Below, one piece after another: positions 1,760 to 49,755 of a stretch of DNA of 64,000 bases. The translations under genes and the position numbers were made by a program. This DNA comes from Pocillopora verrucosa. Its lineage: Eukaryota; Cnidaria; Anthozoa; Scleractinia; Pocilloporidae. The notes below the pieces were generated by a model. It did no database searches. It had not been told where the DNA came from and saw only the letters and a list, made by a program, of their open reading frames with translations. The stretch lies in assembly GCF_036669915.1 (NCBI RefSeq), contig NC_089314.1, positions 4,495,620-4,559,619 on the forward strand, in the 5' to 3' direction. Each line of letters starts with the position of its first letter. The first letter of the stretch is position 1.

Positions 1760-3035
1760 TTTTTCCTCCATTTCAACAGATTGGAGTCTGATGAATAATT
1801 ACAAGTAAGATAAGAGGATGGAGAAGGGCATAATATAGCAAGCTAGTTAGATGCCTTTTACCTTAAATTACATTTTTTCATACAATAAAAAGAAGCGATA
1901 CAATAAGATTTAAGATATGAGATACAAATATAAGAGAGGGAATAGGAATCACATCTTAAACAACAAATATTTAAGTAAACATGGTTAGGGGAAGACATTA
2001 ATCAGTACTGGGAAAGGTAATGTGCTCTTTTAAAAAGTTTTTTTAGTGGGCTTCTCCCGTATAGATATAGCAATATCATTCCAATAGTAACACCCTGTAA
2101 TTGTTGGAAATAATTTCCTTATATTTATTCTGAAGGGGCAAGGGTTTAGGTGTTGCAAAGATGTACTTCTAGTGGCATAATCATGGATCTCAGATACAAA
2201 AAAAATGCAAAATTAGAAGATTTTTTGTCTGCAATATGATCATAGAATAGTTGACACGTACTCAATTTAATTATGTCAGGAAGCTTAATTAGGCCCGAAG
2301 GCCTACATAATAGGGAGTAACATGGTCACGAATTGGTACATTGTTGATGATTCTTATAGCTTTGCTTTGTAGCTTTGCCAACTGAGACTTCGTAATTATT
2401 ACCCCACAATATGCAGCCGTATGTTAAATAAGGATGTACAAGTGCATAGTATACACTTACAAGAGATTGAACTGTTACATGTCGGTTCAGTTTTGCGATT
2501 ATGGTTAAACTTTTGCTAATTTTACTGCTAGTATAATCAATATGATCATGCCACGACAGAAAGGAATCGATAACTCATCCTAAGTATTTAACAGTGTGAG
2601 ACTGTTCAAGGTATTGATTGGCTAATTTAAGGGGGGATATAAATTGTAATTATTTCTCTGTCGTGGTTGGAAAACCAGGTATTTTGTCTCACTTAAATTC
2701 AGGGTTATCTTATTTGAGCATAGCCATTCATAGACTGGTGGTAGTTCGGAATTTATTCGCTGGATCAATACATCTAAATCACTACCAACTGCTGTTAAAG
2801 ATGTGTCATCTGCAAAAAGTCTTACAGTAAAGTAATAAGTAGCTCTGACCATATCGTTGATATAAACTATAAAGAGGAATGGCCCTGATATTGACCCTTG
2901 TAGTACTCCTGATTTCAATAAGTAGAAATTAGACTCGACACCATTAACGAACACCATTGGTTGTATCCTGGTGTACCGGTTAACCAAAATATGTCCTGGT
3001 GTGCCGGTTAACGAAACTTGCGTGACATCGGTCAA
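1760..3035 (-). mobile_element. Degraded non-LTR retrotransposon (reverse transcriptase remnant)
   Basis: On the minus strand, 3035-2622 reads as reverse transcriptase palm: a GVLQGSISGPFLFIVYINDM block followed by FADD, the catalytic YADD box with Tyr replaced by Phe. Past the stop the same family can be followed in shifted frames through 2600-1985 (WHDHIDYTSSKISKSLTII, then YYALVHPYLTYGCILWG), which is the usual RT thumb and C-terminal region. The copy is 5'-truncated, with no endonuclease, and broken by several frameshifts. Near its 5' edge (about 2966-3018) a ~33 bp segment containing ccggttaac is tandemly duplicated. It is a dead LINE, different from the intact one at 4.8-8.1 kb. The exact 3' boundary near 1760 is uncertain. 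Confidence 0.8.
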
Positions 3036-3104
3036 TCGAATGATAGCGTGAATGCTTTGATAATAAAATGCAATAAAATGCCGTCATTGGTTCATTGTTG
3101 GGTT

Positions 3105-3310: not shown

Positions 3311-4579
3311 TAGTTAAGTTTGTATCACATTGTATTAATATGCTCTAATAGTGTCTGGGAATGAGTCGCTCTTAGAGGCTAAAACTATCAAAATTGTGAT
3401 GTAAGATTTAGCTCTTACCGACTTGAGAGCAATCAAGACTTTATATTCTTTGACCCAGACATATACAGGGTGAGGAAGCAAGAGACACGGAACAATTTAT
3501 TTCAGAAATGAACTCTTCCAGCGGGTTTTAAGCAATCTTTAAACATTGACTCATACATGTAACCAAAGATTACTCAACGGAACTATTCCGTTTCACTGTA
3601 GAATAGAAACTGTCACACTGCTACAGGGGTCAAATAATTTCTAGGCTTTCAGTTTTACTATTACCTATTAAAAAAGAGTCCTCATCATTATGCTCAGTAA
3701 TCGGCTGACTAAAACCCCGCTTTTGATGTAAAAAGATGTTGGTGAAAGTATTAATGTTGTTACATATTGTCAGTTTAGAATTCATAAACTCATATAAATT
3801 CAATTCAAGTCAATTCAGTTGATACTGTTAAAGCAGCACAAGCGGAAATTAAACGTAAGGAAAACAAGCAGTGAGTAAATATGGAACACACTGAAACCTA
3901 ATTCTGTCTGAACAGTCGATCCGTAAAATCATCCGTTAGTAAATTCACAGAACACAAAATCCACCAGATCTGCTATCGTGAAAGAAGAGCGTCTTTCTCT
4001 TGCTCCTCTTGAAGTACGCACTGACCAAGTTGGTCTAAACAGCAACAACAGAGGTTAGGCCGGCAGACAACACTCCAGTGGCAGTGCTTTCGCCACAGAA
4101 CCGATTTTAAGAGCGTAAACAACAGAGAGTCAAAGCATGACCTCGAGCGTTGGCTAAAAAGTCCGGACTACCGCAGCAAACCGTAAACATCACATAAGAG
4201 TGTGACAGGCATCGGGCCTTTCTGCTTTGAAAATTCTAAACCAAAATAACGTAAAGGAAAAATGAATGAGAAGAGGGAGAGGCTCGTCAATTGGAAATCA
4301 AACTCGCTAATTGAAATTCCGCCTCTAAGAGATTAAGAAAACATATTAAAAGAAGGAACGCGTAGAGTGACTTTTAAACAACAGGAATGAGTTCAATGGC
4401 GCGCGTAAAGATTGTCACGTTTTGTTGGAATTAGACGAGGAGAAGAATACATCGTATCAATGGTTCGATGTCCAGGACTGTCAATTCTTCGAATGTAGAA
4501 TTAGAGTGCAAGAAACGTAAATTTTTTGAAGGAAAAGTTCGCTATTTCAAGATATTAATAAAGGTGTAGGGAACTTTAC
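3311..4579. other. Gene-free spacer
   Basis: I find no frame longer than chance, no recognisable domain and no RNA gene. The sequence is non-repetitive within the window. Confidence 0.5.
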
Positions 4580-4806
4580 ACGCCACCGACTTTATTTGCA
4601 TACGCAGTTACATCGGGTTTAGTAAGGACTTTATTTATAGAGGGGGACACGTAACAGCTGAAAAGCTGACAAACCTGTGGCCCTCTAACTAGATTATACA
4701 GCATTACAAAATAATACTAATAAATAGATAAATATACAAATAATTACAAAATTCTATGATAGAAATAGCAGGATATATTAAAAATATTCAGAAAGATAAA
4801 ATTAAT

Positions 4807-7800
4807 TTATAAAAAATTAAAATTAGATAATGTGCTATTGCTTAATATTGTTTCAAAGTTGTCCAGGTTTCTATATGAGCTTATAAAATACTTTTTCACA
4901 GCTGTTTTGAATAGTTTTATACTAGGCTTATTTTTGATATTATGGGGAAGGCTGTTCCATAACTTAACTGCGTCAACACTGAATGCCTTGCCACCATCGT
5001 TATTTCTTAGGTATTTGGGACACACTAAATTTAAATTGCCATGTCTAGTAGACCTATTGTGTACAGAACTGTTCGTCTTGAGCAAGTCTCTGATGTAAAT
5101 CGGAACATCGCCTTTAAGGCTCTTAAAAATCATTGTACACTTATTTAGTTTGATTTCATCAAAAAAAGGCAACCAGCCTAGTTTACTAAAGTTTATAACA
5201 CTTCTAGAATAAGAGTCAACTCCAAGAATTACTCGGGCAGCCCTTTTCTGTAACCTTAGGAGACAGTGGAGTTCTTTAGCGTCGCAGATATTCCAAACCA
5301 TGCTCCCATACATAAGGACGGGTTTAATCAAGGCGTTATAGTATAAGAGTCTTTCTTTTATTGGAAGGTATCTCTTTATCTTCTTCAATAAACCAATACG
5401 CTGAGAAAGCTTGGCCTTTAGACTAGAAATGTGGTCGCTAAATGTAAGATCTTGATCGAGTGTTACACCAAGCAATTTATAAGAAGTTACTTGTTCTATT
5501 TCGGCCCCATCAAGGGTCATTGACAGGTGATTGCCATCCGCTAATGATGAATGTAGCCTCTTTCCGGTGATAAGTAATGCATTGGTTTTAACGGCGTTTA
5601 GGACCATCCCATTTTCGCTAGACCATTTACTTAATTTATCCATGTATTCTTGAAGACGTCGTTCCAATTCCAAAGGTGCATTATCGATATTAGCGCTGGC
5701 TTTAAATGTGGTGTCATCCGCGTAAGCATGAATAGTTGAGTCCGATCCAACAGCTTCGGGAAGATCATTGACGAAAATTAAAAACAGTAGAGGTCCTAAT
5801 ATGCTACCTTGAGGAACTCCATTGGTTAGCGTAAGTTGTGACGAAGTCGAGTTATTTACAGTAACACACTGTTTGCGATTGAGTAGATAGCTCTGCAATA
5901 GCTTTACAACATTATCTGGAAATCTATATGATCTTAACTTTACCAGGAGAATGTCATGATTGATCAAGTCGAATGCCTTGCTATAGTCCACAAAAACTAA
6001 GCCGCTGACGTTGTTCTTATCAAGGTCAAGAAGGACTTGGTCCAGAAGAAACAACAAAGCAGTATCCGTGGAGTGGTTTTTACGGAACCCTGATTGGAAG
6101 CGGTATAAAAGTGAATTTTCTGTTAAGTAGGTGTTCACAGCATTGAAGATGTGTCTTTCAAAGACTTTAGAAAGAATAGGCAAAATGCTAATAGGACGAT
6201 AGTTTTGAATATCTTGCTTGTTTCCTTGATTCTTGAAAAGAGGTTTAACCTTTGCTATTTTCCATTGTGAGGGAAATGTACAAGTTTCAATACAGTGATT
6301 TATAATTTTAGCTATGGAACATGATATTTCAGGAGCTGCAATCCTTAGAACTCTGGCACCAAGCCCATCGATTCCCGTGGCTTTGTGTGTAGGTATACTT
6401 AGAAGATAATCGTTAACCTCACTAGGAGTTATTTGCGGAATAAGATTTTCAATTTGACTGTTAGATTTGTCTGGTGGACCAGGAAGAGCATCATAATGAA
6501 GTACAGGTGTCGACTTTATGAGACGTTTATATACATCAACGAAGAAGCGGTTAAAGCGTTCAGCGATTGAATGGTCATCCTTTATCAAGTTGTTGTTTTC
6601 GTCAGCAATAGGGACGGAGTCGTCGTTATTCTTTGTATCTTTAGATAGGTCTTTAATTAAAGACCAAAGTTTCTTTGGACATTTTTGATTTTTACTGAAC
6701 TGAGTTTTAAAGTACTGTTCCTTCGCATTTCTTAGTTTCCTCGTCACTTTGTTTTTAACCAGTTTAAAAGCAGACCAATCTTGCTTATTTTGTGTTCTCC
6801 TGGCCCTCTTTAGAAGATTATCGCGTTTATTTATTTCGTTGTATAGATCATTAGTGAACCATTTTGGCTGATTGATTTTCTTCACACTCTTGGACTTTAA
6901 AGGTGCGTGATTATCAAGAATGTCATTAAAGATTTTGTACCAAGATTCAACAATGTCATCGGCATCTCGAAAAACAAAGGAGATATCCCAAGGGGCTTCT
7001 CTTAGGTCTCGCAGAAAGCACTCTTTGTTGATTTTGTCGATATTTCTGTATTTGATTTTGGAATGTTGTTTACGTTGTGCATCCATGGTTTTGTAGCACC
7101 TCAAGATGGTGACCGGAAGGTGATCGGAAAGTCCAGATTTACCTATGGATACTTCTCTAATTCTAGCAGGATGACTAGAATAAATATGGTCTAAGCACGC
7201 ATCAGAGGCAGGTCTTGTTACCCCATTTACCATCTGCGTTAATCCAAGACTGTTCAGTGCCTTTGCGAGACAATGTTTTGAATAACAGTTGAAATCAATA
7301 TAATCCAAATTAAAGTCTCCCAGAATAATCAATTCATTGTTTTGGAGATGGGCATTTTCAATATTTTTACCCAAGCTCTCATTATAATCTTTGTTGGCTG
7401 AAGGTGGACGGTAAACACCAGATATCAAAATCGGTCTCTTTGATTTATGAGGACAAATTTGAAGCCAGAGAGTTTCAAGATCATCCAGTTCCAAATCTCT
7501 TCGACGTAAAGCCATAACTTTCTCATTTACATACGCAAATATGCCGCCACCTTTCTTCCCGATTCGATCTTTTCTGTGTAATGTGTAGCCGGGTATCATG
7601 TAATAGCTGTCTGGAATTTTACTTGATCCGAACGTCTCAGTGAGAATTAAGACGTCGAGTTTAGCAGCACTGTTGTTGTTCGAGGTGAGCATTAGCGATA
7701 GTTCTTCCAATTTGGTGTCAGTCAGTCGTTGGATGTTCCAGTGGCAGACTGATAAACCTCTGAAGCCTGCAGGTGGTTGAAGATTATTAGGCCCTGGATT

Positions 7801-8088
7801 GACGGCAATATCGCCAGATAGAAGAATGCACAGACAAAATTGGCCAAGCTTGATGAACCGCAACAACGCGTGAAGCTTCAAATTCAATTCGCAAGGTGTG
7901 CATTTCGAAGGCTTTGACTTACAGTTGAACGTAGGTGGAGCAGATATTTCCTTCCCAATGAAGAGTGTAACTGTAGAGCGATCGAATTCAGGTGTAATTG
8001 AAGTAAATTGGCCAAGTAAAACGCTGAAAATAGTCAATAGAAGCACGACTGCAAAAATATGTCTGCACGCCATGACTAATTTATGCAC
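4807..8088 (-). CDS. LINE polyprotein: 2A-like leader, AP-endonuclease, reverse transcriptase (1093 aa)
   Basis: This is one uninterrupted frame. Residues 1-100 form a leader with a hydrophobic segment (about 10-26), a second one (79-90) and a SGDIAVNPGP motif. Residues 112-330 are the endonuclease/exonuclease/phosphatase fold: CHWNIQ, the LTETF metal-binding glutamate (149-153), GVYRPPS (224-230), LGDFNLDY (256-263) and the catalytic SDHLPV (321-326). Residues 610-880 are reverse transcriptase: NYRPIS (629-634), SGFRKNHSTD, DYSKAFD (701-707), NGVPQGSILGP (756-766) and the YADD box (789-792). The C-terminal part has the conserved LWNSLP block of this group. Such proteins nick DNA and prime reverse transcription at the target. 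No stop or frameshift is present and all catalytic motifs are there, so the copy is recent and may be active. The start is the first ATG of the frame; Met6 is an alternative. Confidence 0.9.
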   Translation of the reverse strand: MHKLVMACRHIFAVVLLLTIFSVLLGQFTSITPEFDRSTVTLFIGKEISAPPTFNCKSKPSKCTPCELNLKLHALLRFIKLGQFCLCILLSGDIAVNPGPNNLQPPAGFRGLSVCHWNIQRLTDTKLEELSLMLTSNNNSAAKLDVLILTETFGSSKIPDSYYMIPGYTLHRKDRIGKKGGGIFAYVNEKVMALRRRDLELDDLETLWLQICPHKSKRPILISGVYRPPSANKDYNESLGKNIENAHLQNNELIILGDFNLDYIDFNCYSKHCLAKALNSLGLTQMVNGVTRPASDACLDHIYSSHPARIREVSIGKSGLSDHLPVTILRCYKTMDAQRKQHSKIKYRNIDKINKECFLRDLREAPWDISFVFRDADDIVESWYKIFNDILDNHAPLKSKSVKKINQPKWFTNDLYNEINKRDNLLKRARRTQNKQDWSAFKLVKNKVTRKLRNAKEQYFKTQFSKNQKCPKKLWSLIKDLSKDTKNNDDSVPIADENNNLIKDDHSIAERFNRFFVDVYKRLIKSTPVLHYDALPGPPDKSNSQIENLIPQITPSEVNDYLLSIPTHKATGIDGLGARVLRIAAPEISCSIAKIINHCIETCTFPSQWKIAKVKPLFKNQGNKQDIQNYRPISILPILSKVFERHIFNAVNTYLTENSLLYRFQSGFRKNHSTDTALLFLLDQVLLDLDKNNVSGLVFVDYSKAFDLINHDILLVKLRSYRFPDNVVKLLQSYLLNRKQCVTVNNSTSSQLTLTNGVPQGSILGPLLFLIFVNDLPEAVGSDSTIHAYADDTTFKASANIDNAPLELERRLQEYMDKLSKWSSENGMVLNAVKTNALLITGKRLHSSLADGNHLSMTLDGAEIEQVTSYKLLGVTLDQDLTFSDHISSLKAKLSQRIGLLKKIKRYLPIKERLLYYNALIKPVLMYGSMVWNICDAKELHCLLRLQKRAARVILGVDSYSRSVINFSKLGWLPFFDEIKLNKCTMIFKSLKGDVPIYIRDLLKTNSSVHNRSTRHGNLNLVCPKYLRNNDGGKAFSVDAVKLWNSLPHNIKNKPSIKLFKTAVKKYFISSYRNLDNFETILSNSTLSNFNFL
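7789..7818 (-). other. 2A-like ribosome-skipping motif (SGDIAVNPGP, residues 91-100)
   Basis: The motif matches the 2A core D-(V/I)-E-x-N-P-G-P except that Ala replaces Glu. A hydrophobic stretch (FCLCILL) precedes it, as in 2A-like sequences described at the N-termini of APE-type LINEs in sea urchins and other invertebrates. There the ribosome skips the Gly-Pro bond and releases the leader from the enzyme. Whether the Glu-to-Ala form still skips is unknown; activity is inference. Confidence 0.65.
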
Positions 8089-8116
8089 TGAATTCCAACG
8101 GAATTGCCGTAATACA

Positions 8117-8258
8117 ATGATCAGAATTCATGGAAAAAGAGTTTTGACGGTTTTAGCTTTTGTGATGGCAATTTTTTTATCTTTCCAGCTAGGTCTTATA
8201 TGGAGTACTCGTTCCTCGTTTTTTGACATTGTTCGTGAACAACTAGATGTCGAAAGCC
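8117..8258 (+). pseudogene. Beta-1,3-galactosyltransferase gene, 5' fragment (signal anchor)
   Basis: The 47 codons from ATG 8117 read as a short basic N-terminus (MIRIHGKRV), a ~20-residue hydrophobic signal anchor and the start of a stem (FFDIVREQLDVES). That is the topology of a type II Golgi glycosyltransferase. The frame is cut at 8258 by the foldback element, and past it runs only into the element's GAAAC repeats. The missing rest lies at 11368-12206 in a frame that joins exactly if the element and one 9 bp target copy are removed (142 + 839 nt = 327 codons with stop). The ATG lies 29 bp from the first coding base of the oppositely oriented LINE, so the native promoter may have been displaced. 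I infer that these two pieces were one intronless gene. Confidence 0.8.
8250..8258. repeat. Target-site duplication, left copy (tcgaaagcc)
   Basis: These nine bases are identical to 11359-11367 and directly flank the inverted ends of the foldback element. Confidence 0.9.
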
Positions 8259-8420
8259 GGCTTATACTATTTTGCGAAACGAAACGAAACGAAACGAAAC
8301 GAAATCGGGTCAGATGAAATAAAACAAAAGGAATAATGCAGATATATTTTCAAATAAGGTAAAGATAACTTTCACAAGGATTTTGGAGTAATCGTTCATT
8401 AATAAGAAGGATTTTTATTC

Positions 8421-9908
8421 ATTTCGCAAAATAGTAATTTTAGGAGAGTTACTATTTTGCGAAATGGACTATTTTCACTCTGCGGTGACAACGTGACCTC
8501 TTTCATGTCGCGAAAATACATTTAAACATTACAAATTAGTATATAACCGAACATTTTGGCCTCCTCTTATTTCTTAAACCGTATTAAAATATATTTCGCG
8601 AAATAGTAATTTTAGGAGAGTTGCTATTTTGCGAAATGGACCATTTTCACCCCTGCGATGACAACGTGACCTCTTTCATGTCACAAAAATACATTTAAAC
8701 ATTACAAATTAGTATATCACCGAACATTTTGGCCTCCTCTTATTTCTTAAACCGTATTAAAATGTATTTCGCAAAATAGTAATTTTAGGAGAGTTACTAT
8801 TTTGCGAAATGGACAATTTTCACCTTGCGGTAACAACGTGACCTCTTTCATGTCATAAAAATTCATTTAAACATTACAAATTAGTATATCACCGTACATT
8901 TTGGCCTCCTGTTATTTCTTAAACCGTATTAAAATGTATTTCGCAAAATAGTAATTTTAGGAGAGTTACTATTTTGCGAAATGGACTATTTTCACCCCTG
9001 CGGTGACAACGTGACCTCTTTCATATCACAAAAATACATTTAAACATTACAGATTAGTATATCACCGTACATTTTGGCCTCCTCTTATTTCCTAAACCGT
9101 ATTAAAATGTATTTCGCAAAATAGTAATTTTAGGAGAGTTACTATTTTGCGAAATGGACCATTTTCACTCTGCGGTGACAACGTGACCTCTTTCATGTCG
9201 CGAAAATACATTTAAACATTACAAATTAGTATATAACCGAACATTTTGGCCTCCTCTTATTTCTTAAACCGTATTAAAATATATTTCGCAAAATAGTAAT
9301 TTTAGGAGAGTTACTATTTTGCGAAATGGAGCATTTTCACCCCTGCGATGACAACGTGACCTCTTTCATGTCACAAAAATACATTTAAACATTACAAATT
9401 AGTATATCACCGAACATTTTGGCCTCCTCTTATTTCTTAAACCGTATTAAAATGTATTTCGCAAAATAGTAATTTTAGGAGAGTTACTATTTTGCGAAAT
9501 GGACAATTTTCACCCTGCGGTAACAACGTGACCTCTTTCATGTCATAAAAATTCATTTAAACATTACAAATTAGTATATAACCGAACATTTTGGCCTCCT
9601 CTTATTTCTTAAACCGTATTAAAATATATTTCGCAAAATAGTAATTTTAGGAGAGTTACTATTTTGCGAAATGGAGCATTTTCACCCCTGCGATGACAAC
9701 GTGACCTCTTTCATGTCACAAAAATACATTTAAACATTACAAATTAGTATATCACCGAACATTTTGGCCTCCTCTTATTTCTTAAACCGTATTAAAATGT
9801 ATTTCGCAAAATAGTAATTTTAGGAGAGTTACTATTTTGCGAAATGGACAATTTTCACCTTGCGGTAACAACGTGACCTCTTTCATGTCATAAAAATTCA
9901 TTTAAACA
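8421..9908 (+). repeat. Left-arm tandem array, about 8.6 units of 172-173 bp
   Basis: Units start with atttcgcaaaatagtaa at 8421, 8593, 8766, 8938, 9111, 9283, 9456, 9628 and 9801, spacing that alternates 172 and 173 bp. Each unit opens with a 17 bp perfect inverted repeat around an 11 bp loop (ttttaggagag), then carries the conserved gacaacgtgacctctttcat and cattttggcctcct blocks. Alternating variants (gtcacaaaaatac versus gtcataaaaattc) suggest a two-unit higher-order period. Confidence 0.9.
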
Positions 9909-10180
9909 AACAAAAGCACGTGGAACTTGCGCAAATGCGAAACACGATCTCTTGCTCGTAAGGAAGAGGTGTGCGACGGGGGTGTAATCAGAAGCGCGTA
10001 CGCGTAACTTTTCCATGTATATTATTTTTATTAAAAATTTTGAAGCAAAGGAACTGTATTACTTGCGATTATAAAACTGCTGGACGACTATTTCGGCATG
10101 GATATGCTTCTGTTCTCTATACGAGACGGAGAGTCTAAACATGTTTAGACGCCACTGGAAAACTGTCATGTTGGTGCAAG
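9909..10180. other. Unique core of the foldback element
   Basis: This 272 bp stretch between the arms lacks the ~172 bp repeat and has no frame of note. It contains cgcgtacgcg and two short gtttagac copies around 10134-10151. No promoter or RNA gene is recognised. Confidence 0.6.
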
Positions 10181-11176
10181 ATGTTCGGTGATATACTAAT
10201 TTGTAATGTTTAAATGTATTTTTGTGACATGAAAGAGGTCACGTTGTCACCGCAGGGGTGAAATAGTCCATTTCGCAAAATAGTAACTCTCCTAAAATTA
10301 CTATTTTGCGAAATATATTTTAATACGGTTTAAGAAATGAGAGAAGGCCAAAATGTTCGGTGATATACTAATTTGTAATGTTTAGATGTATTTTCGTGAC
10401 GTGAAAGAGGTCACGTTGTCACCGCAGGGTGAAAATTGTCCATTTCGCAAAATAGTAACTCTCCTAAAATTACTATTTTGCGAAATACATTTTAATACGG
10501 TTTAAGAAATAAGAGGAGGCCAAAATGTTCGGTGATATACCTATTTGTAATGTTTAAATGTATTTTTGTGACATGAAAGAGGTCACGTTGTCACCGCAGG
10601 GGTGAAAATAGTCCATTTCGCAAAATAGTAACTCTCCTAAAATTACTATTTTGCGAAATACATTTTAATACGGTTTAAGAAATAACAGGAGGCCAAAATG
10701 TTCGGTGATATACTAATCTGTAATGTTTAAATGAATTTTTATGACATGAAAGAGGTCACGTTGTTACCGCAGGGTGAAAATTGTCCATTTCGCAAAATAG
10801 TAACTCTCCTAAAATTACTATTTTGCGAAATACATTTTAATACGGTTTAAGAAATAAGAGGAGGCCAAAATGTTCGGTGATATACTAATTTGTAATGTTT
10901 AAATGTATTTTTGTGACATGAAAGAGGTCACGTTGTCATCGCAGGGGTGAAAATGCTCCATTTCGCAAAATAGTAACTCTCCTAAAATTACTATTTTGCG
11001 AAATATATTTTAATACGGTTTAAGAAATAAGAGGAGGCCAAAATGTTCGGTTATATACTAATTTGTAATGTTTAAATGTATTTTCGCGACATGAAAGAGG
11101 TCACGTTGTCACCGCAGAGTGAAAATAGTCCATTTCGCAAAATAGTAACTCTCCTAAAATTACTATTTTGCGAAAT
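10181..11176 (-). repeat. Right-arm tandem array, about 5.8 inverted units of ~172 bp
   Basis: The same unit appears in reverse complement, with atttcgcaaaatagtaa blocks near 10269, 10441, 10615, 10787, 10959 and 11131. The arm has about three units fewer than the left, so the arms pair over roughly 1.2 kb only. One unit here lost a base in its tract (gtgaaatagtcc at 10258-10269). Confidence 0.9.
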
Positions 11177-11358
11177 GAATAAAAATCCTTCTTATTAATG
11201 AACGATTACTCCAAAATCCTTGTGAAAGTTATCTTTACCTTATTTGAAAATATATCTGCATTATTCCTTTTGTTTTATTTCATCTGACCCGATTTCGTTT
11301 CGTTTCGTTTCGTTTCGTTTCGTTTCGTTTCGTTTCGTTTCGCAAAATAGTATAAGCC

Positions 11359-11367
11359 TCGAAAGCC
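11359..11367. repeat. Target-site duplication, right copy (tcgaaagcc)
   Basis: Identical to 8250-8258. Its last base is the first base of the His codon that follows the interruption in the glycosyltransferase frame. Confidence 0.9.
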
Positions 11368-12206
11368 ATGTGCAGCGGTTTCAATTTCGAGAACTGAAAA
11401 TTAATCGCACGACAACTTCTACTTCGCAAGTTAATTACAAATCATTTCTTATAACCAGGAGATCTTGTATGCAACATTACGATCTTCTTATGATTATCTC
11501 CTCCGCTCCAAGTAATTTCGAAAGAAGGAATAACATTCGTAAGACATGGGCATTCGAAAGATCCGCAAAACCAAGATGGACGTCAGTTTTTCTGGTCGCT
11601 CAAACACGGAATGAAGCAGTTTCGAACGTGTTGCTCGACGAAGATGAAGCACTTAAGGACCTTGTGCGAGCTAGCTATTACGACCACTACTGGAATCAAA
11701 CCCGAAAGATACAAATGGGCTTCGAGTGGGCAGTAACGTATTGTAATTTTTCGTTTCTTTTGAAATTGGATGACGACGTTTTCGTGCACGTTCCAAGAGT
11801 TCTCTCCTTCTTAAGCGCACCCACCACGCCGAAGAAGATGTTTTATGCTGGCTGTCATTATGCAAACATGGGCCCTCATAGGAAAGGCAAATGGATGGTA
11901 ACTTACGAGGAATACAACAAGACAAGATATCCAGACTTTTGCCCCGGTTTTGGATACATTTTATCTCACGATGTTGTACGTGCATTTGTTGACACTTTCT
12001 CTTCTTTACCGTTCTTCAGACTGGACGATGTTTACGTTGGCATGCTGGCGAGTAAGAACGGAATAAGTGTCACAAACAATGTGGGTTTTGAACTATGGCA
12101 TCCGCCTCAATATGTATGTGTTCCAATAAAGAATACTTTAGTCAGGCATGATGTAGGGGAAGAGTGCCAACTGGAAATGTTTAACTTAACCATTTTTCCT
12201 CGGTAG
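11368..12206 (+). pseudogene. Beta-1,3-galactosyltransferase gene, catalytic part (GT31)
   Basis: After the second target copy the frame reads HVQRFQFRELK and then a complete GT31 domain: the RRNNIRKTW block, FLLKLDDDVFVHV with the DxD motif that binds UDP-sugar through manganese, YPDFCPGFGYILSHDVV, and LDDVYVG, the E/D-D-V-x-x-G signature. It ends at 12206. With the 5' fragment the protein would be 326 residues, normal for B3GALT proteins, which add galactose in beta-1,3 linkage to GlcNAc or GalNAc acceptors in the Golgi. As the sequence stands the enzyme cannot be made with its anchor: an open frame runs in from the transposon end (from 11244), giving at most an anchorless product. The catalytic half shows no decay, so the insertion is probably recent. 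Which B3GALT paralogue this is, or the acceptor, cannot be told. Confidence 0.85.
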
Positions 12207-38900: not shown

Positions 38901-41900
38901 CGCAGTCTAGAAGCCCCGCATTTTAATGATGGTAAAGGGGGGGGGGGGAGGGGGGCTTATTTTAGCATTTATGGTACATCATGTATGCTTGTTATCTTAA
39001 GTGTAGCGAGAGAATCTTTCCTTTGGAAGTGCATGTATTAATATAGTCTTTTTCGCCGTACACATCAACTAAAAATGCAATGAAGATAGTTCTTCCTTTC
39101 GTGGTAAAATATCGCTGAAAAAGTTGAGATTTCCCGGAGAAGTTTCCTTTTATATAAACAAATATGCTTCCACTTTTCAGAAGTTGAGATTTTAGGGTTT
39201 TATAAAATGGTCATGCTTCAAAGAAAATTCTTGGTTTTTCAACTCTTAAAGTTGGAAAGCGTTGCCTATACATGCCAGTTAAAGATAGCGAGTAACACCA
39301 TTACAATACTTCTTTTTGTACGATAGTGGCCCATTGTGTATTTTGGACACTAGTAACAAATTTTGATTTTGGACACTAGTGGCCGATAATGAGTTTGGGC
39401 ACTGGTGTCCAATTTCGGATTTTAATTTAAAGTCTCTGTTTTTGGATTTTGGACACTAGTGGCCGATTTTTCTTCGGACGCTAGTGGCTGATTTTGGATT
39501 TTGGATTTTGGACGGTAGTAGCCGATTTTGGATTTTAGACACTTGTGGCCGATTTTGGATTTGGGACACTGGTAGCCAATTTTGGATTCGGGACACTAGT
39601 GGCTGATTTTTTTACATGTTTTTGACGATAGTGGCCGATTTTGGATTTTGAACGCTAGTGGCCGATGTTGAATTTACGATTTGGATTTTGGATTTTGGAC
39701 ATTAGTGGCCGATTTTGGGTTTTGGACGGTAGTGGCCAATTTTGGATTTTGGACGCTAGGGGCCGATTTTGGATTTTGGACACTTAATCGGCCACCAGCG
39801 TCCAAAATCCAAAATCGGCCACTTGTGTCGAAAATCCGTGAAAAGTTGACATACGTGCATTTTAATTGCAGAACGACATTTGAATCAGGTCACAACATTT
39901 CCCAATCCTGACTACGTGTTTATTTGACGAACGTATAACGCTTATAACAAAGTTCTAACCAGGATTACTCTTTTTTCAGGTGTGGGATCCAAGTTCTGTT
40001 AACATAGCAGACTACGTCCGCATACGAGTTGGTCATGGTCTGACTCCAACCAAAGCGACACTGTTGTTAGGGATGGTAGAACAGTTCAGTACAAGTGTTA
40101 TATCTGAAGGTATTTAAAATGAAGATAACTTTGAATATCTATGTTAGAGATTTTATGAACCCAAACCAGAGTTGACGATTTTGTTTTTAAAAAGTGTGAA
40201 AGTTTTTTTGTTTACCACAGCCTCATACCTGCCAATCAATTTGTCAGCGCTCTTAACGAAAGGAAATCGGCCAGTTGCATATTAACGTTTCAACAATGAG
40301 GAAAAAATAGAACTAAATTTTAGTTGCTGGTAACATTTATAGTCTTTTATATGGCGAATTTTCCTGTCGCCTTTAGATTTAGTGATTCCCAATGAGTCTC
40401 TTAATTGTATTTGGCCAGTCGGACAATGGTTGTGGAATACCAATGGCTGTCGGAAGTATTAGATATGCCAAAATCCTCGACCTATTGTTGAAGACTTGCG
40501 CTTGGCAGTAACACATTCTCTTCTTTCGCCCCTCATCCTCTCAAGGTATAGGTGGTATGTGGTCATCATCTAACGACAAAGTTGTCAGAATCAACTCCAC
40601 GACTGGCATAGCAATGGCAACAGCTGCAGGAACTGCTACTATTTACTACAAGATACCTCAGTTGTACTCAGCCCAGACTGAAGTCAAAGTCGAGAGCCTG
40701 AGTTACATTCATGTCTCGAGAGATGACGCCCTGGTCATCACCAATATCCCGCGACTGGATGGGCGTGGCTATGTCATTCCTGTTAACTTGGGACACGACT
40801 ATTTGTCGCAGGAACAAACGACCAAAGCATCTGGTCTTGTAGATGGAATTCTGCTGTTTGAAGAACTAGGTTTCAAACAGGCGACACCTTTCCAGTGTAT
40901 TCTACACCTTGGTAATGATCTGCAAGGCAATATCCACGCACATGACTTGTTTGAGGTGAAGCCCGGGTTCGTCAATGGACAACCAATGTGTTATGTGGTA
41001 CCAAAGAATGCTAAAGACGATGTGATCAAGTCGGCAAGTTCTATCGCTGCTCAGCTGAGTCTTGTTGTCAGGATTTTCGACGAGATTCAAGGTCGTAGCG
41101 AATCCTCGGAGTCACTAAAACTTCCCTTCGTGCCTGCATTTGTGTTGAGTGAAACAGAACTGGAGCTTTCTGCTGATAAACGGAAAGCGCAAGTTTTTGT
41201 TATGGCCAATGCTGAACAGCTGAACAACCTTGAGGTAAACTTTGTTCGATTTTTGGTTTGTTTGTTTGTCTGTTTGTTTGTTTACTAATTAGATCCGTGT
41301 GTTTTTTGCTCTGGCCGGTGGAAACTCTTTCTCTTTGGAGTGAGTAGTAAGAGATTTCCCCTTCACACGTCGTCACTAAGCCATGAGGTGATGACAATAC
41401 AAAGTGTATTTACCAATCAAGAGATATTGTTCTTCTCAGGCTTCGCTCAAAAAGAAATTTATGACAGACAGAAAGGAGACCTGTCATTAGGATCTTAGTT
41501 GTGAAAAGATTTGACTAGCATTTTCGACATTAGAGAGATCCTATGCAAAGAGCTTTTAGAGGCGTGAAATATTAAGCTCGAAGTAGATTTTCTCTTCCTT
41601 TTTGTATCCCGATTTGTATAACTTGAGTACAGCTGGAGTACAGTTGCTCACCATCGGTCGCCTTACGGAGGAAAGTTAGAGGCCGTTTTAAAATGAGGTT
41701 CGACTGTAGGTCTTCGAAATGTTTGAGGCGCCACTCCTTTAGGTTTGAGCTGTTTATGTACTCATATGCACAAACGCTGCAAACTGTCACTTTTTTATCT
41801 CCAAGGTAAGATCTCAAGACCCGTCCCTGGTCGAATTTACAGGGTGGTTAAATTCAGTTGATAAGGAGGCCGAATATGAGATAGAAGTTGTCGAGAAAAA

Positions 41901-42588
41901 CGGCAAGTCGTTCAAGAGAGTCTGGGTGGAGTTTAAAAGCTTACTTACCGGCCAGAGAGGCTTAGTGTACGTGACTTACACAGCGCCATCCAGTGGTGCA
42001 GTCCCTGTGCTGTTACCAGGAGCAATTCCAAGCAGTGAGCAGTGTCCAACAGTCGCAGCAGGCAAAATAGAGAGAAGCTTTCAAGGATTTCTCTTCGCCT
42101 TGCTTGGACAGACAAGTGCTTGGATAATCGGTTTGTCATTTTTTATTGGGTGCATAATTCTTGCGCTGATCTTATGCTGCAGTCCTCGTGGCAGGGGTGC
42201 CAGTAGTGGAGCAGTGTCTGGAGCGGCCTCTCCCAGCCCTCTCAGAGGGACCCCTCAGCATGGAAGCCCTTATCCACAAGGTCCATATCCTGGTTCATCT
42301 ACAGGTACATTGTCCGCGGGAAGGCCCATTTATCTGAGCTCAACCACAGGCGCATTTTCACCGGGAGCTGGGGCTTATGGATCTCGTGGTAGTGCGAACG
42401 ATACATCTCTTCGGTCCTTTCCAGAGGAGCACGATGAAACACACCGAGGAATATCCACAACATACCGGCACACCAAAACCTCTGCTCGCACATATCTTTC
42501 CGACGATAGTTCTCACGCCTCTGGAGCAACGTCTATTGGGCGTGTTTCACCGAACAAGTCACCCAGATTGTTCAGTGTCAATCAATAA
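14982..42588 (+). CDS. NUP210: Nuclear pore membrane glycoprotein 210 (gp210), complete, 41 exons
   Basis: A single-pass glycoprotein of the nuclear envelope that rings the pore, with most of its mass in the perinuclear lumen. Exons, all GT-AG and phase-consistent: 14982-15157, 15270-15334, 16071-16157, 17099-17230, 17738-17831, 18874-18937, 19402-19488, 20510-20642, 20912-21040, 21811-21879, 22379-22485, 23145-23279, 23887-24054, 24365-24520, 24920-25028, 25480-25575, 25877-26022, 26424-26535, 27334-27399, 27637-27695, 28414-28487, 29055-29163, 29839-30040, 30179-30285, 30810-30914, 31223-31321, 31429-31557, 32373-32500, 32634-32784, 33456-33518, 33831-34010, 34383-34463, 35009-35137, 35734-35889, 36641-36726, 37012-37207, 37667-37839, 38630-38714, 39980-40109, 40546-41234, 41806-42588. 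The total is about 2014 residues (human about 1890). Residues 1-21 are a signal peptide, then NLPPRVLLPY typical of the family, BIG2-type Ig-like repeats (GMYIWSSSNTSVATV in exon 14, GMWSSSNDKVVRI in exon 40), and a TM helix at about 1858-1879. Weakest calls: the exon 3 donor (gtgatt), the exon 37 donor (gttaaa) and the exon 38 start. Confidence 0.92.
16211..16415. repeat. MITE-like repeat (TTAACCC family) in NUP210 intron 3
   Basis: Opens ttaaccctttaacttcaag and closes catgtttgggagtt. It shares internal blocks (ttatgagaa, gtttgctgaatgatgtatggatatt, agggagaag) with 18029-18180 and 18646-18810. Confidence 0.65.
16606..16792. mobile_element. Palindromic MITE/foldback (75 bp arms) in NUP210 intron 3
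   Basis: The arms 16606-16680 and 16718-16792 are near-perfect reverse complements (for example tttccgtgtttacatagcc against ggctatgtaaacacggaaa), around a 37 bp loop. The structure would fold into a long hairpin in the pre-mRNA. No target duplication is clear. Confidence 0.8.
18029..18810. repeat. Two MITE copies flanking a ~460 bp element with GGCGTGAAATT ends
   Basis: About 105 bp recurs almost unchanged at 18061-18173 and 18647-18752 (gacctttccttgtaaataag, gccagatcaagatggcagat). Between them, 18181-18641 begins ggcgtgaaatt and ends aatttcacgcc, an 11 bp perfect inverted terminus. The simplest reading is a DNA transposon that landed in a MITE, with a duplication of MITE sequence at the insertion. 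No target-site copy was resolved. Confidence 0.6.
21193..21450. repeat. (TTCA)n microsatellite in NUP210 intron 9
   Basis: About 250 bp of imperfect ttca/ttta tetramers (attcattcattcattt), the usual product of slippage. It is read as a Ser-Phe-Ile-His peptide on the plus strand, which is meaningless. Confidence 0.9.
22715..22935. repeat. MITE-like repeat, second family (TTAACCTCTTACACCC)
   Basis: It starts ttaacctcttacacccaaa and ends gggtttgaagggtaa. Shared internal blocks (gatcatttcctttattctc, gattcaggggtgac, aaggagaaat) recur at 51500-51707 and 54254-54465, which defines a family with inverted ends of about 210 bp. Confidence 0.7.
23585..23805 (+). repeat. Dispersed repeat with hammerhead-like core (possible Penelope-like 5' region)
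   Basis: The sequence agagtttctatgctgatgtt pairs with aacgtcggcttagaaactct across a structured core. It is followed by the tail tttatcaactcagtttta and actcccccactgacacagca, also found at 31690-31870 and 62805-62945. Assignment to Penelope-like elements is inference. Confidence 0.5.
26996..27283. mobile_element. Small DNA transposon remnant with CAGGGTTTGTAC ends in NUP210 intron 18
   Basis: Ends are ctgggtttgtac (27002) and gtacaaaccctg (to 27277), inverted with one mismatch. The element is 276 bp and flanked by agtttt on both sides (26996-27001, 27278-27283). The interior is rich in ctggaaa/tttccag inverted blocks. The CAGGG-type terminus suggests hAT, but the visible duplication is 6 bp, not 8. 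Confidence 0.55.
27950..28017. repeat. (GGGA)n microsatellite in NUP210 intron 20
   Basis: A purine run of gggagggagggaggaagg units, about 65 bp, with possible triplex or G-rich structure. Confidence 0.85.
31690..31870 (+). repeat. Dispersed repeat with hammerhead-like core, best-preserved copy
   Basis: It contains gctgacgtc, then ctgagga, a short stem aggcctaacgct, then cgaaacgtcagc. These are CUGANGA and GAAA boxes, with gctgacg able to pair with cgtcagc next to a GUC triplet. The tail (tatcagctcagttgataaacc, ctcaccgacgcagcaccaca) is shared with the other copies. Its position in intron 27 is incidental. Confidence 0.5.
33180..33232. repeat. Polypyrimidine tract in NUP210 intron 29
   Basis: Low-complexity C-rich run (cccccttccccccctcccct). 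It is more than 220 bp from the next acceptor, so it is not the splice tract of exon 30. Confidence 0.8.
39325..39835. repeat. ~27 bp minisatellite in NUP210 intron 38
   Basis: About 15 imperfect units built on ggccgattttggattttgga plus cactagt run in one direction. The array ends with an inverted piece (39787-39829) that can fold back on it. The Asp-Phe-Gly-Phe-Trp frame through it is a by-product. Confidence 0.85.
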
Positions 42589-46681: not shown

Positions 46682-49454
46682 TCAATTCTCTGCATCAAGT
46701 ACCTCTGGCTCTGAATTGGATGATGATGATGTTTCTGTTTCTGTCTCTGTGTCAGTTTCATTCTCATCACTCATCTTGCATTCAAGGACGATCTGATCAA
46801 TATTACTATCCTCATGGCCAGGGTGATATTCGAGGCCTATCTCACTGTTGTCTTTATGGTTATCATGATTGTTACTGTTTCCTTCATGACCAGGCTGAAC
46901 AAAACAATAACTAAACTGATTTGATGCTTTTCTGTGGTCAAAGTATTGGCACTTCTCTAGATGTGCTGCCATGAATGGTGAGTTAGAATGCACCCACTTT
47001 TCAACTGGTGAAAATGAGGTGGAAAAATACCATCGCTGAAATAGAAAGTAGACTGTTGTTATTAAAATTAGTTCCTTTAACTCTCTATACAGTTACTACA
47101 GCTGCTTTTCACCAAGAAAAATACTATAAGTCACTTATATATTTAGATAGTCCTAGTTAAAATTGATTTAGTTGAGCATGTTGCAAAATATACCAGCAAA
47201 TCACTTCTAAAGAAAACACAATTGTTGTCCCTCTTGGAATACTGATGTGGCAGAAGCATTTCCTAACCTAATGCACAGTATTATGCACCCATCAAAAACA
47301 AAATGATTTCATCTACAAAGAAGTTGAAAATACATACAGCTATGCTTACTTTGCTAGACTTAATCTCTATAGATATTTTGTTAGCTACAAGTTCTTAAGA
47401 AAACAAGACCATTATTGCACAAAATAAATAACCTTTCCCCACCACTTCCTCAAACAGGATTAGTAACCTTAATTTTCACATAAGACAAATTATATACCTC
47501 TTGTTAACTGAGTTTGAGGTCTGTACTGTAAGCAACAGACCAAGAGTTTTCCTGCATGGATTTCAGGCCCAGGTGCATAGCGCACATGCCATAAACCCAA
47601 ACAAAAAAATGAGGTTCCGTAACTTACATTAAGGAGCAAGAAAACAAGTTTATTAAAATATTTATCAAATAGATTGAGGGAGAAGATTTCAGTTCAAAAA
47701 TATTTTAAGTTTAATGAGCCTTATGTTTATCTAATATGGCCCACTAGATTGACCAATCATAGTGAATGTACTAAGTGAGAGATGTGATACTAAAATTGAA
47801 ATAAAACTTTACTACAGCTTCGGCTTTCTAGTTTACACCATGTAAAAGACATGAAACTTTACTACTTACTTGCAAACTTACATGTTGCCAGAGTAACCAT
47901 TTGACTGTACATACAAACTAAATTACTAAATGAACCTTATAAGTCATAGATGAGGTTCATGCAATACTTAACACCCACCTTTTGTCTTATCTTCCAAGAC
48001 CAGTTTCCATCATCATAGATTCTTTTTTCCCATTCAAATAGTACCATACCTTTTGTTTCCAAAACATTCATACAAACCTCCCTCAGCAACTTACATGTGC
48101 AAGAGAAGTTACACAGACTGAAGCCATCCAGTTGGCCAGCTATCTTCGCCAAGATATCTAGGGGCAAAGATGTCAGCAGATCCAAACTAGATGTTGTATG
48201 CATCTGCATTTGATTTGGAGCAATTTCCCCTGTGGGACCAGTGGTGTCTTGTATCTGACTTTGAGAATATTCTGTTGTACAACAAGAAGTGTTTACTAGA
48301 GGTGATTGCTCATATGGTCTGATGCCAAAGCTTCCAAGCTCTTGATTGAAGGTTACAGCTCCATCTTGGCTGTGAGGCAGAAGCCTATAGCGCACAAATG
48401 TGCAGCCATACTGCGAAAGAGGACACCGATGCTCCAACCAACCATTCAGCCCTCCCTGAATATCACTATGAACATTCTTGAAATGGCCACTGTACTCATC
48501 ACGGCGGAATACCTGGTTGCAGGGTATGGAATACATTGGAGACTGTTTCTGGAACTTGGGGAGGGTTTCAACCACAACATTCAAACCCAGGGGTTGGTCG
48601 AGGTAGATTGGCAGATGAGCAGGAGGAGGCGGTACACTGTTGTCAAGGAAACTAACAGAGGCCTTGTCACCTTTACTACTTTCATCTTCCTCTCCTTGCA
48701 ACGGATGTAGCTCTATATCAACTGGGTTAACATCAGGATTAACATAATCAGCACATTCATTTTCCAGTTTTTCACTTCCAGAAAGCAAATCGCTGAGAAT
48801 ATTTCGGTTTTCGTTATGGGTTTCGTTGTTAAGTGAATTTTCATCCTCGAGATCTCCGCTAGAAATCTGCCCTTCACCTCGTTGTTTACGAAACTTATTT
48901 TCTAACGAAGACATTGCTAAAGCCATCGCCATTTTGACAGAATCCGATTTCACAGTCGATGGTTGGGTTCCGCTACCATGCTGTTTCGGTGTGCCTTTCT
49001 GTAAGGACGATCTTAACATGTCTACTTTTGCTTTCCCTTTTCTACAACGCCTTCGGAATACTTCCTGAAGTATTCTTTGATCCCTGAAGGCCAGCTCCAC
49101 ATCTAGATGCCCTTTTACTAGAATCGGGTTCGGTTGAAAGAAAGGCACCAAACTTAACCGAGATTTGGAATACACTGGATATCTATTCCACTCCATTGTA
49201 CAAAAAATCACACTTGCTGGGCACCGCTGTAAGTGGTTTCTCAGGCTATCCCTTGTCATCACAACCGGACATCCGTACTCTGAATTTATACATGGAATTC
49301 GACATTTCTGGCACACATTCTGGTGGTCTTTCATTTTACAGCTGTGAAGTTGTGCGGTGCATCCGAATTCACAAAATAACATCTTGCAGCCATTTTGAGA
49401 ACTACAGTAGAGCTTTACACAATTGTCGCAATGTTCGTGGCTTTTAGACTCCAT
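46682..49454 (-). CDS. FBXO30: F-box protein of the FBXO30/FBXO40 type, two exons
   Basis: A substrate receptor for an SCF ubiquitin ligase. Exon 1 is 49454-47979 (492 codons) and exon 2 is 47035-46682, phase 0, joining IRQK to RWYFSTSFSPVEKW; the total is 609 residues. Residues 1-95 are Cys/His-rich TRAF-type zinc fingers (CDNCVKLYC through CPASVIFCTMEWNRYP) that closely match the vertebrate pair FBXO30/FBXO40. The middle is acidic and low-complexity. A second Cys-containing block precedes the F-box (about 420-470: LTSLPLDILAKIAGQLDGFS). The splice donor is ggtgggt and the acceptor tatttcag. Exon 2 holds the conserved C-terminal block, then an acidic Thr-Glu tail (TDTETETETSSSSNSEPE). The gene is head to head with APH1. 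Whether it is orthologous to FBXO30, to FBXO40 or to their common ancestor cannot be settled here; the symbol is a family label. Confidence 0.88.
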
Positions 49455-49755
49455 TATCTACCGGCGAAGAGTCATGGAAATGCAAGAGAGACTTCCACGT
49501 ACCGGCAATGGTGATCTTTTGTTTTTTCCTCAGTGAATATTTATTTACATTTAGCAGGTTCGCCGCTGTTTCATGTGACACGGCTTATTCCGAATATCTT
49601 CGGCTACTTCCGACATTTACGAGGAAGTATCGATGTAGACGTCATATGACATCATTGGACCAATATGGCGGAAAAAGCTTATTAACTTTGGCTTAGAATT
49701 ATTCCAGAGAAAAGTTTAATCTATCTTCGTTTCTGTTCACGTTATTCTCGTCGAC
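49455..49755. promoter_or_regulatory. Bidirectional promoter between the F-box gene and APH1
   Basis: Only 301 bp separate the two divergent start codons. The interval holds a CRE-like gacgtcat (49638-49645), an inverted attgg (49654-49658), a CCAAT box (49660-49664) and an overlapping YY1-like aatATGGCGGaa (49663-49673). It has no TATA box. This is the usual build of a TATA-less housekeeping divergent promoter; function is inference. Confidence 0.6.

Follow-up and report, generated by a model that had tools for sequence, protein, structure and literature searches.

A foldback transposon of probable MULE type divides a GT31 galactosyltransferase gene in the reef coral Pocillopora verrucosa

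The window analyzed here, a 64,000-nucleotide stretch of the Pocillopora verrucosa genome (NC_089314.1; contig C3:4495620-4559619), contains a putative GT31 beta-1,3-galactosyltransferase gene that is divided into two parts by a 3,100-bp foldback transposon. A non-long terminal repeat (non-LTR) retrotransposon, or long interspersed nuclear element (LINE), lies immediately upstream (Table 1). The foldback element has inverted ends that match exactly over 46 bp and is flanked by a perfect 9-bp target site duplication (TSD), TCGAAAGCC; exact inverted ends and the perfect 9-bp duplication had been reported in a first-pass annotation of the window. When the element and one copy of the TSD are left out, the flanks join into 981 bp, that is, 326 codons and a stop codon, with no internal stop and no frameshift. 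The break lies between the first and second bases of codon 48, and neither half of the gene has decayed, as that annotation had held.

The joined 326-residue product presents one strong hydrophobic window at residues 10 to 28 (Kyte-Doolittle score of 2.36), the predicted N-terminal signal anchor of a GT31 enzyme (a type II membrane protein), which is also found in the six paralogues described below. The PF01762 (Galactosyl_T) profile matches residues 99 to 284 with an E value of 2.5e-38 and is covered from position 1 to 193 of 195, so that the annotated combination of a signal anchor with a complete GT31 domain was recovered, the domain being nearly full length. The best relative of known structure is B3GALT5 (E value of 5.7e-30). 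The domain, the DDD motif, and the N-terminal anchor are common to the window gene and to the GT31 beta-1,3-galactosyltransferases (B3GALT5, PDB 8zwp), from which the window copy, a predicted GT31 member, differs in being split.

The split gene belongs to a tandem array on contig C3 and is the last of the members found there. A scan that covered 60 kb before the window, 20 kb after it, and a further 10 kb on the upstream side revealed six copies on the same strand, each of exactly 326 codons without an internal stop, at C3:4443519-4478497 (25 to 60 kb before the window copy). The array also holds one inverted copy of 336 amino acids and a partial one that aligns over its first 103 residues. 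No further GT31 copies were found at an E value of 1e-3 in stretches L049, L045, and L046, and the rest of the window contains none better than an E value of 1.7. The insertion point is uninterrupted in all six full copies, and the one closest in sequence, g4443519+, carries TCGAAAGCC there once. When the joined frame is compared pairwise with the six paralogues, the ratios of nonsynonymous to synonymous substitution (dN/dS) range from 0.22 to 0.40, which fits a frame maintained by selection before the break.

A second empty site is provided by P0048, a 182-amino-acid protein of public contigs that is continuous across the insertion junction. Over the first 163 residues, 9 positions separate it from the joined frame, compared with 11 to 27 differences for the six array copies, and it pairs with the window copy in a tree of 18 rows (support, 97/94). 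The first-pass annotation named the lack of any uninterrupted orthologue as a refutation of its reading; as P0048 spans the junction, that refutation does not apply, but P0048 is no clean functional gene either, since its frame departs after approximately residue 162. An independent failure of this gene elsewhere is possible, as is an error in the contig.

The inserted element shows the architecture of a foldback transposon, with long inverted arms composed of internal tandem repeats. An alignment of the arms, which are about 1.15 kb long, extends to positions 1,163 and 1,182, covers 1,147 columns, and shows 97.8% identity. In both arms, the tandem units of 172/173 bp are placed behind runs of the CGAAA/TTTCG pentamer.

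Table 1. Features of the split gene and of the two mobile elements, in window coordinates
Feature	Position	Strand	Remarks
Old 5' flank of the GT31 gene	4330..4621	+	Aligns to 600-bp upstream stretches of the array paralogues
Non-LTR retrotransposon (LINE)	4622..8103	-	Bounds good to ~5-10 bp; endonuclease and reverse transcriptase ORF of 1,088 aa, Met at 8073
5' part of the GT31 gene	8117..8258	+	Codons 1-47 and first base of codon 48; includes predicted signal anchor (10-28) and left TSD copy
Left 9-bp TSD, TCGAAAGCC	8250..8258	+	9-mer present once, unbroken, at the equivalent place in paralogue g4443519+
Non-autonomous foldback (MULE-type) transposon	8259..11358	.	3,100 bp
Left 46-bp exact terminal inverted repeat	8259..8304	+	Includes 6 x CGAAA (8275-8304)
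Left arm, tandem 173-bp unit	8421..9908	+	8.6 copies
Unique centre of the element	9909..10176	.	In other complete copies, 95-100% identical in 13/16, 85% in one, below cut-off (no match) in two
Right arm, inverted tandem copies of the left-arm unit (172/173 bp)	10177..11176	-	5.8 copies
Right 46-bp exact terminal inverted repeat	11313..11358	-	Overlaps 10 x TTTCG run (11293-11342)
Right 9-bp TSD, TCGAAAGCC	11359..11367	+	Perfect copy of left TSD
3' part of the GT31 gene	11368..12206	+	Whole Galactosyl_T domain and stop codon
245-aa ORF of the 3' part, translated alone from first in-frame ATG	11469..12206	+	Without the anchor of residues 10-28

A search of the genome (353.4 Mb, 52 contigs) with the left end of the element listed 476 matches, and 40 of 140 candidates were scored. 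Eighteen further elements were fetched from the better-scoring matches, a sample biased toward well-kept elements, and approximately seven more hinted elements lie outside it. Both ends are present in 16 of the 18, the stretches L031 and L034 containing one end only. In all 17 complete copies examined, the window copy included, at least the terminal 16 bp of one end recur exactly, inverted, at the other. A perfect 9-bp TSD flanks 15 of the 17 (of the remainder, one has an 8-bp and one a 7-bp TSD), and the TSD of the window copy is therefore not due to chance. TSDs of 8 to 11 bp, mostly 9 bp, are a feature of the Mutator-like element (MULE) superfamily. A sister copy on contig C4, which has its own TSD, is colinear over its whole length (approximately 3.1 kb); 6 substitutions and two pentamer indels of 5 bp separate it from the window element. 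This near identity indicates that the family moved recently, but because the C4 copy may descend from the window element, it is not enough to date the insertion in the window. Together with the undecayed frame and with the uninterrupted P0048 and six paralogues, the sister copy supports the annotated recent insertion of a transposon into an otherwise undecayed frame.

Three of the four longest copies of the family carry pieces of a MULE/IS256-like transposase together with a kinase open reading frame (ORF), and the window copy shares its ends and centre with transposase-bearing copies. A DDE transposase domain of RNase-H order and MULE/IS256 type is predicted for the family, the IS256-type match of the transposase model coming only from a second look with VIA-align. 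Among 20 relatives of the transposase P0121, 3 match Pfam MULE, weakly, and 7 match the SWIM zinc finger, for which P0121 itself has no Pfam match at an E value of 0.05. A search of PDB sequences with the transposase alignment gave no match at E values of ≤1. PMC6446971 and PMC7780238, on the MULE superfamily (with IS256 in bacteria), describe 9-bp TSDs, terminal inverted repeats (TIRs), and an RNase-H-order DDE transposase, all of which recur here, and a SWIM finger in some relatives, whereas the P0121 sequence is too distant for a Pfam MULE match. MULEs are already known in Cnidaria, where a table of PMC6446971 gives the Ghost subgroup and MuDR-6_HM.

Two described groups resemble the coral family. 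According to PMC3169594, the Tm1 Mutator/Foldback elements of root-knot nematodes have composite tandem-repeat arms, mostly 9-bp TSDs, and both non-autonomous and transposase-bearing members, like the coral family. Their arm repeats are 13 to 15 bp long and their 7-bp outer ends are asymmetric, whereas the coral element has a 172/173-bp unit and symmetric ends; asymmetric 7-bp ends outside the inverted repeat were not found in any of the 17 copies. Rehavkus, as described in PMC6446971, resembles the coral element in its 9-bp TSD, in TIRs that can reach 400 bp, and in a minisatellite near the 3' TIR, but has a PHD finger that was not found in the coral family transposase. Assignment to Rehavkus was rejected: P0121 itself matched no Pfam family, and PHD is not one of the 8 families listed for its 20-member alignment at an E value of 0.05.

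The less expected part of the finding is the kinase gene in large members of the family. A 375-amino-acid protein kinase frame (Pkinase, E value of 1.5e-36) is open in the foldback copies C5 (L024+L025) and C14 (L021), broken in copy C9 (L029+L030), and present as a fragment in copy C8 (L038). The protein has a 100% identical counterpart, P0180, on a public contig. In two cases, P0184/P0132 (Desmophyllum pertusum) and P0224/P0167, homologues of the kinase and the transposase lie on longest listed contigs of equal size, which suggests that the pairing is conserved, although contigs of megabase size are no proof of it. A tentative extension, against which the odds lean, is that the window element is a passenger of a coral foldback MULE lineage whose large members keep a working kinase gene across corals; the kinase may help mobilization or dampen host control, the family may still move, and the insertion may be segregating. 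No report of a coral foldback or MULE insertion, or of a kinase-bearing foldback, was found in the literature searched, which is not proof of absence in print. The words "kinase" and "foldback" are absent from the main text of PMC6446971; for the Tm1 paper (PMC3169594), likewise, no "kinase" was counted.

Two further observations were made by eye in foldback copies. A 236-amino-acid ORF containing NDGTNACAFLC in L021, L024+L025, and L029+L030 resembles a cysteine peptidase; it has no Pfam family, and a relationship to the Herpes_teg_N part of P0176 was rejected as not significant (E value of 1.0). In L038, a long nested gag-pol-like retrotransposon ORF lies beside the kinase fragment.

The best explanation of the locus, to which as a whole we give a probability of roughly 0.9, is that a non-autonomous foldback element of a recently mobile MULE-type family inserted into the GT31 gene and split it. 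The element would have entered the single coding exon by cut-and-paste, duplicating 9 bp of the target, and was most likely moved by a transposase acting in trans from longer members of the family. The insertion parts the predicted membrane anchor from the catalytic domain. Reading from the old ATG enters the element for 19 codons beyond codon 47 and stops after 66 amino acids, where the 5' product would end, and the 3' piece could yield only the unanchored 245-amino-acid protein. Given this separation, production of a Golgi enzyme from the window copy should have ended, and on the evidence of its sequence loss of function is very likely. The knockout of the anchored enzyme proposed in the first-pass annotation would thus hold for the window copy but not for the enzyme at large: with six other intact 326-codon copies, loss of activity in the animal is not implied, and the function is probably buffered by the array. 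The mutation is a clean case of an already known type and introduces no new mechanism.

Several observations weigh against this explanation. Codons 1 to 47 alone, compared with g4443519+, give a dN/dS of 1.19, with just 5 changes. Because P0048 loses its frame, the window copy may be under relaxed constraint elsewhere too; the loss in P0048 may reflect either a true frameshift or an error of sequencing. For the transposase model, Foldseek alone gave no match at E values of ≤0.001, Pfam assigned no family to P0121, and the transposase frame is broken in all three long copies seen, with no intact source among them. Finally, silencing of the gene by the LINE may have preceded the foldback insertion.

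The LINE has an intact 1,088-amino-acid ORF with Exo_endo_phos (2.3e-12) and RVT_1 (1.6e-34) domains and, near the start of the ORF, a GDIAVNPGP stretch that is presumably 2A-like. Homology to the upstream regions of the paralogues stops at approximately 4621, restarts at approximately 8104, and runs to the ATG at 8117; the upstream region of g4457989+, for example, matches 4330-4519 and 4572-4620 at 82 to 86%. This places the LINE about 13 bp before the ATG, between the gene and its original 5' flank. A clean target duplication was looked for around the LINE and not found. The foldback insertion, presented in the first-pass annotation as the lesion, stands as such but would be one of two, the LINE having been missed.

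If the LINE came first, the copy was already silenced, and the foldback element hit a dead gene without effect. This order of events, which rivals only the claim of damage, is a live possibility that falls short of an even chance. The severing of a paralogue-like 5' flank so close to the ATG speaks for it. The ORF of the LINE is itself uninterrupted, however, so the LINE also looks young, and the joined frame contains no stop or frameshift: in a neutral simulation with assumed rates, the 95% bound before a disabling change in an unconstrained frame is approximately 0.022 events per site.

Splicing of the element as an intron, with the enzyme still produced, is very improbable. The frame of the gene stays open into the element at both of its outer ends, and 15 donor-acceptor pairs keep the frame open in the stretches scanned (donors at 8151-8330 and acceptors at 11226-11420, scored with consensus weights). 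The best pair nevertheless totals -5.4 bits, with an acceptor of -6.1 that is below the window median of -4.8; the donor of this pair, at 0.7, lies between the 90th and 95th percentiles of all GT dinucleotides in the window; and the 326-amino-acid protein is not restored by any of the 12 listed pairs. Intron removal, which the first-pass annotation had named as a threat to its own reading, was rejected, as sequence scoring gave no convincing in-frame GT/AG pair in these stretches. An artefact of assembly or haplotype merging is somewhat less probable still: the insertion comes from a single assembly and a tandem-array region, but it has a perfect TSD and family-typical ends, and a sister copy elsewhere has its own TSD. 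The idea that the two halves were never one gene and match in frame by coincidence has no point in its favor and practically no probability, being refuted by the continuity of the six array paralogues and P0048 across the site.

Elsewhere in the window, a reverse transcriptase fragment (2622-3083, minus strand), exons resembling the nuclear pore protein NUP210 (40512-42588, plus strand), and a TRAF-zinc-finger/F-box-like ORF (47937-49457, minus strand) were noted by eye.

In this reef coral, the locus presents a natural gene break that is resolved to the base, with two kinds of empty-site control, in the array paralogues and in a closest public relative, and with a near-identical sister element. 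It points to a tandem glycosyltransferase array losing one copy while the others are kept. Through the empty-site controls and the sister element, it becomes testable whether a foldback MULE family has recently been active in a coral.
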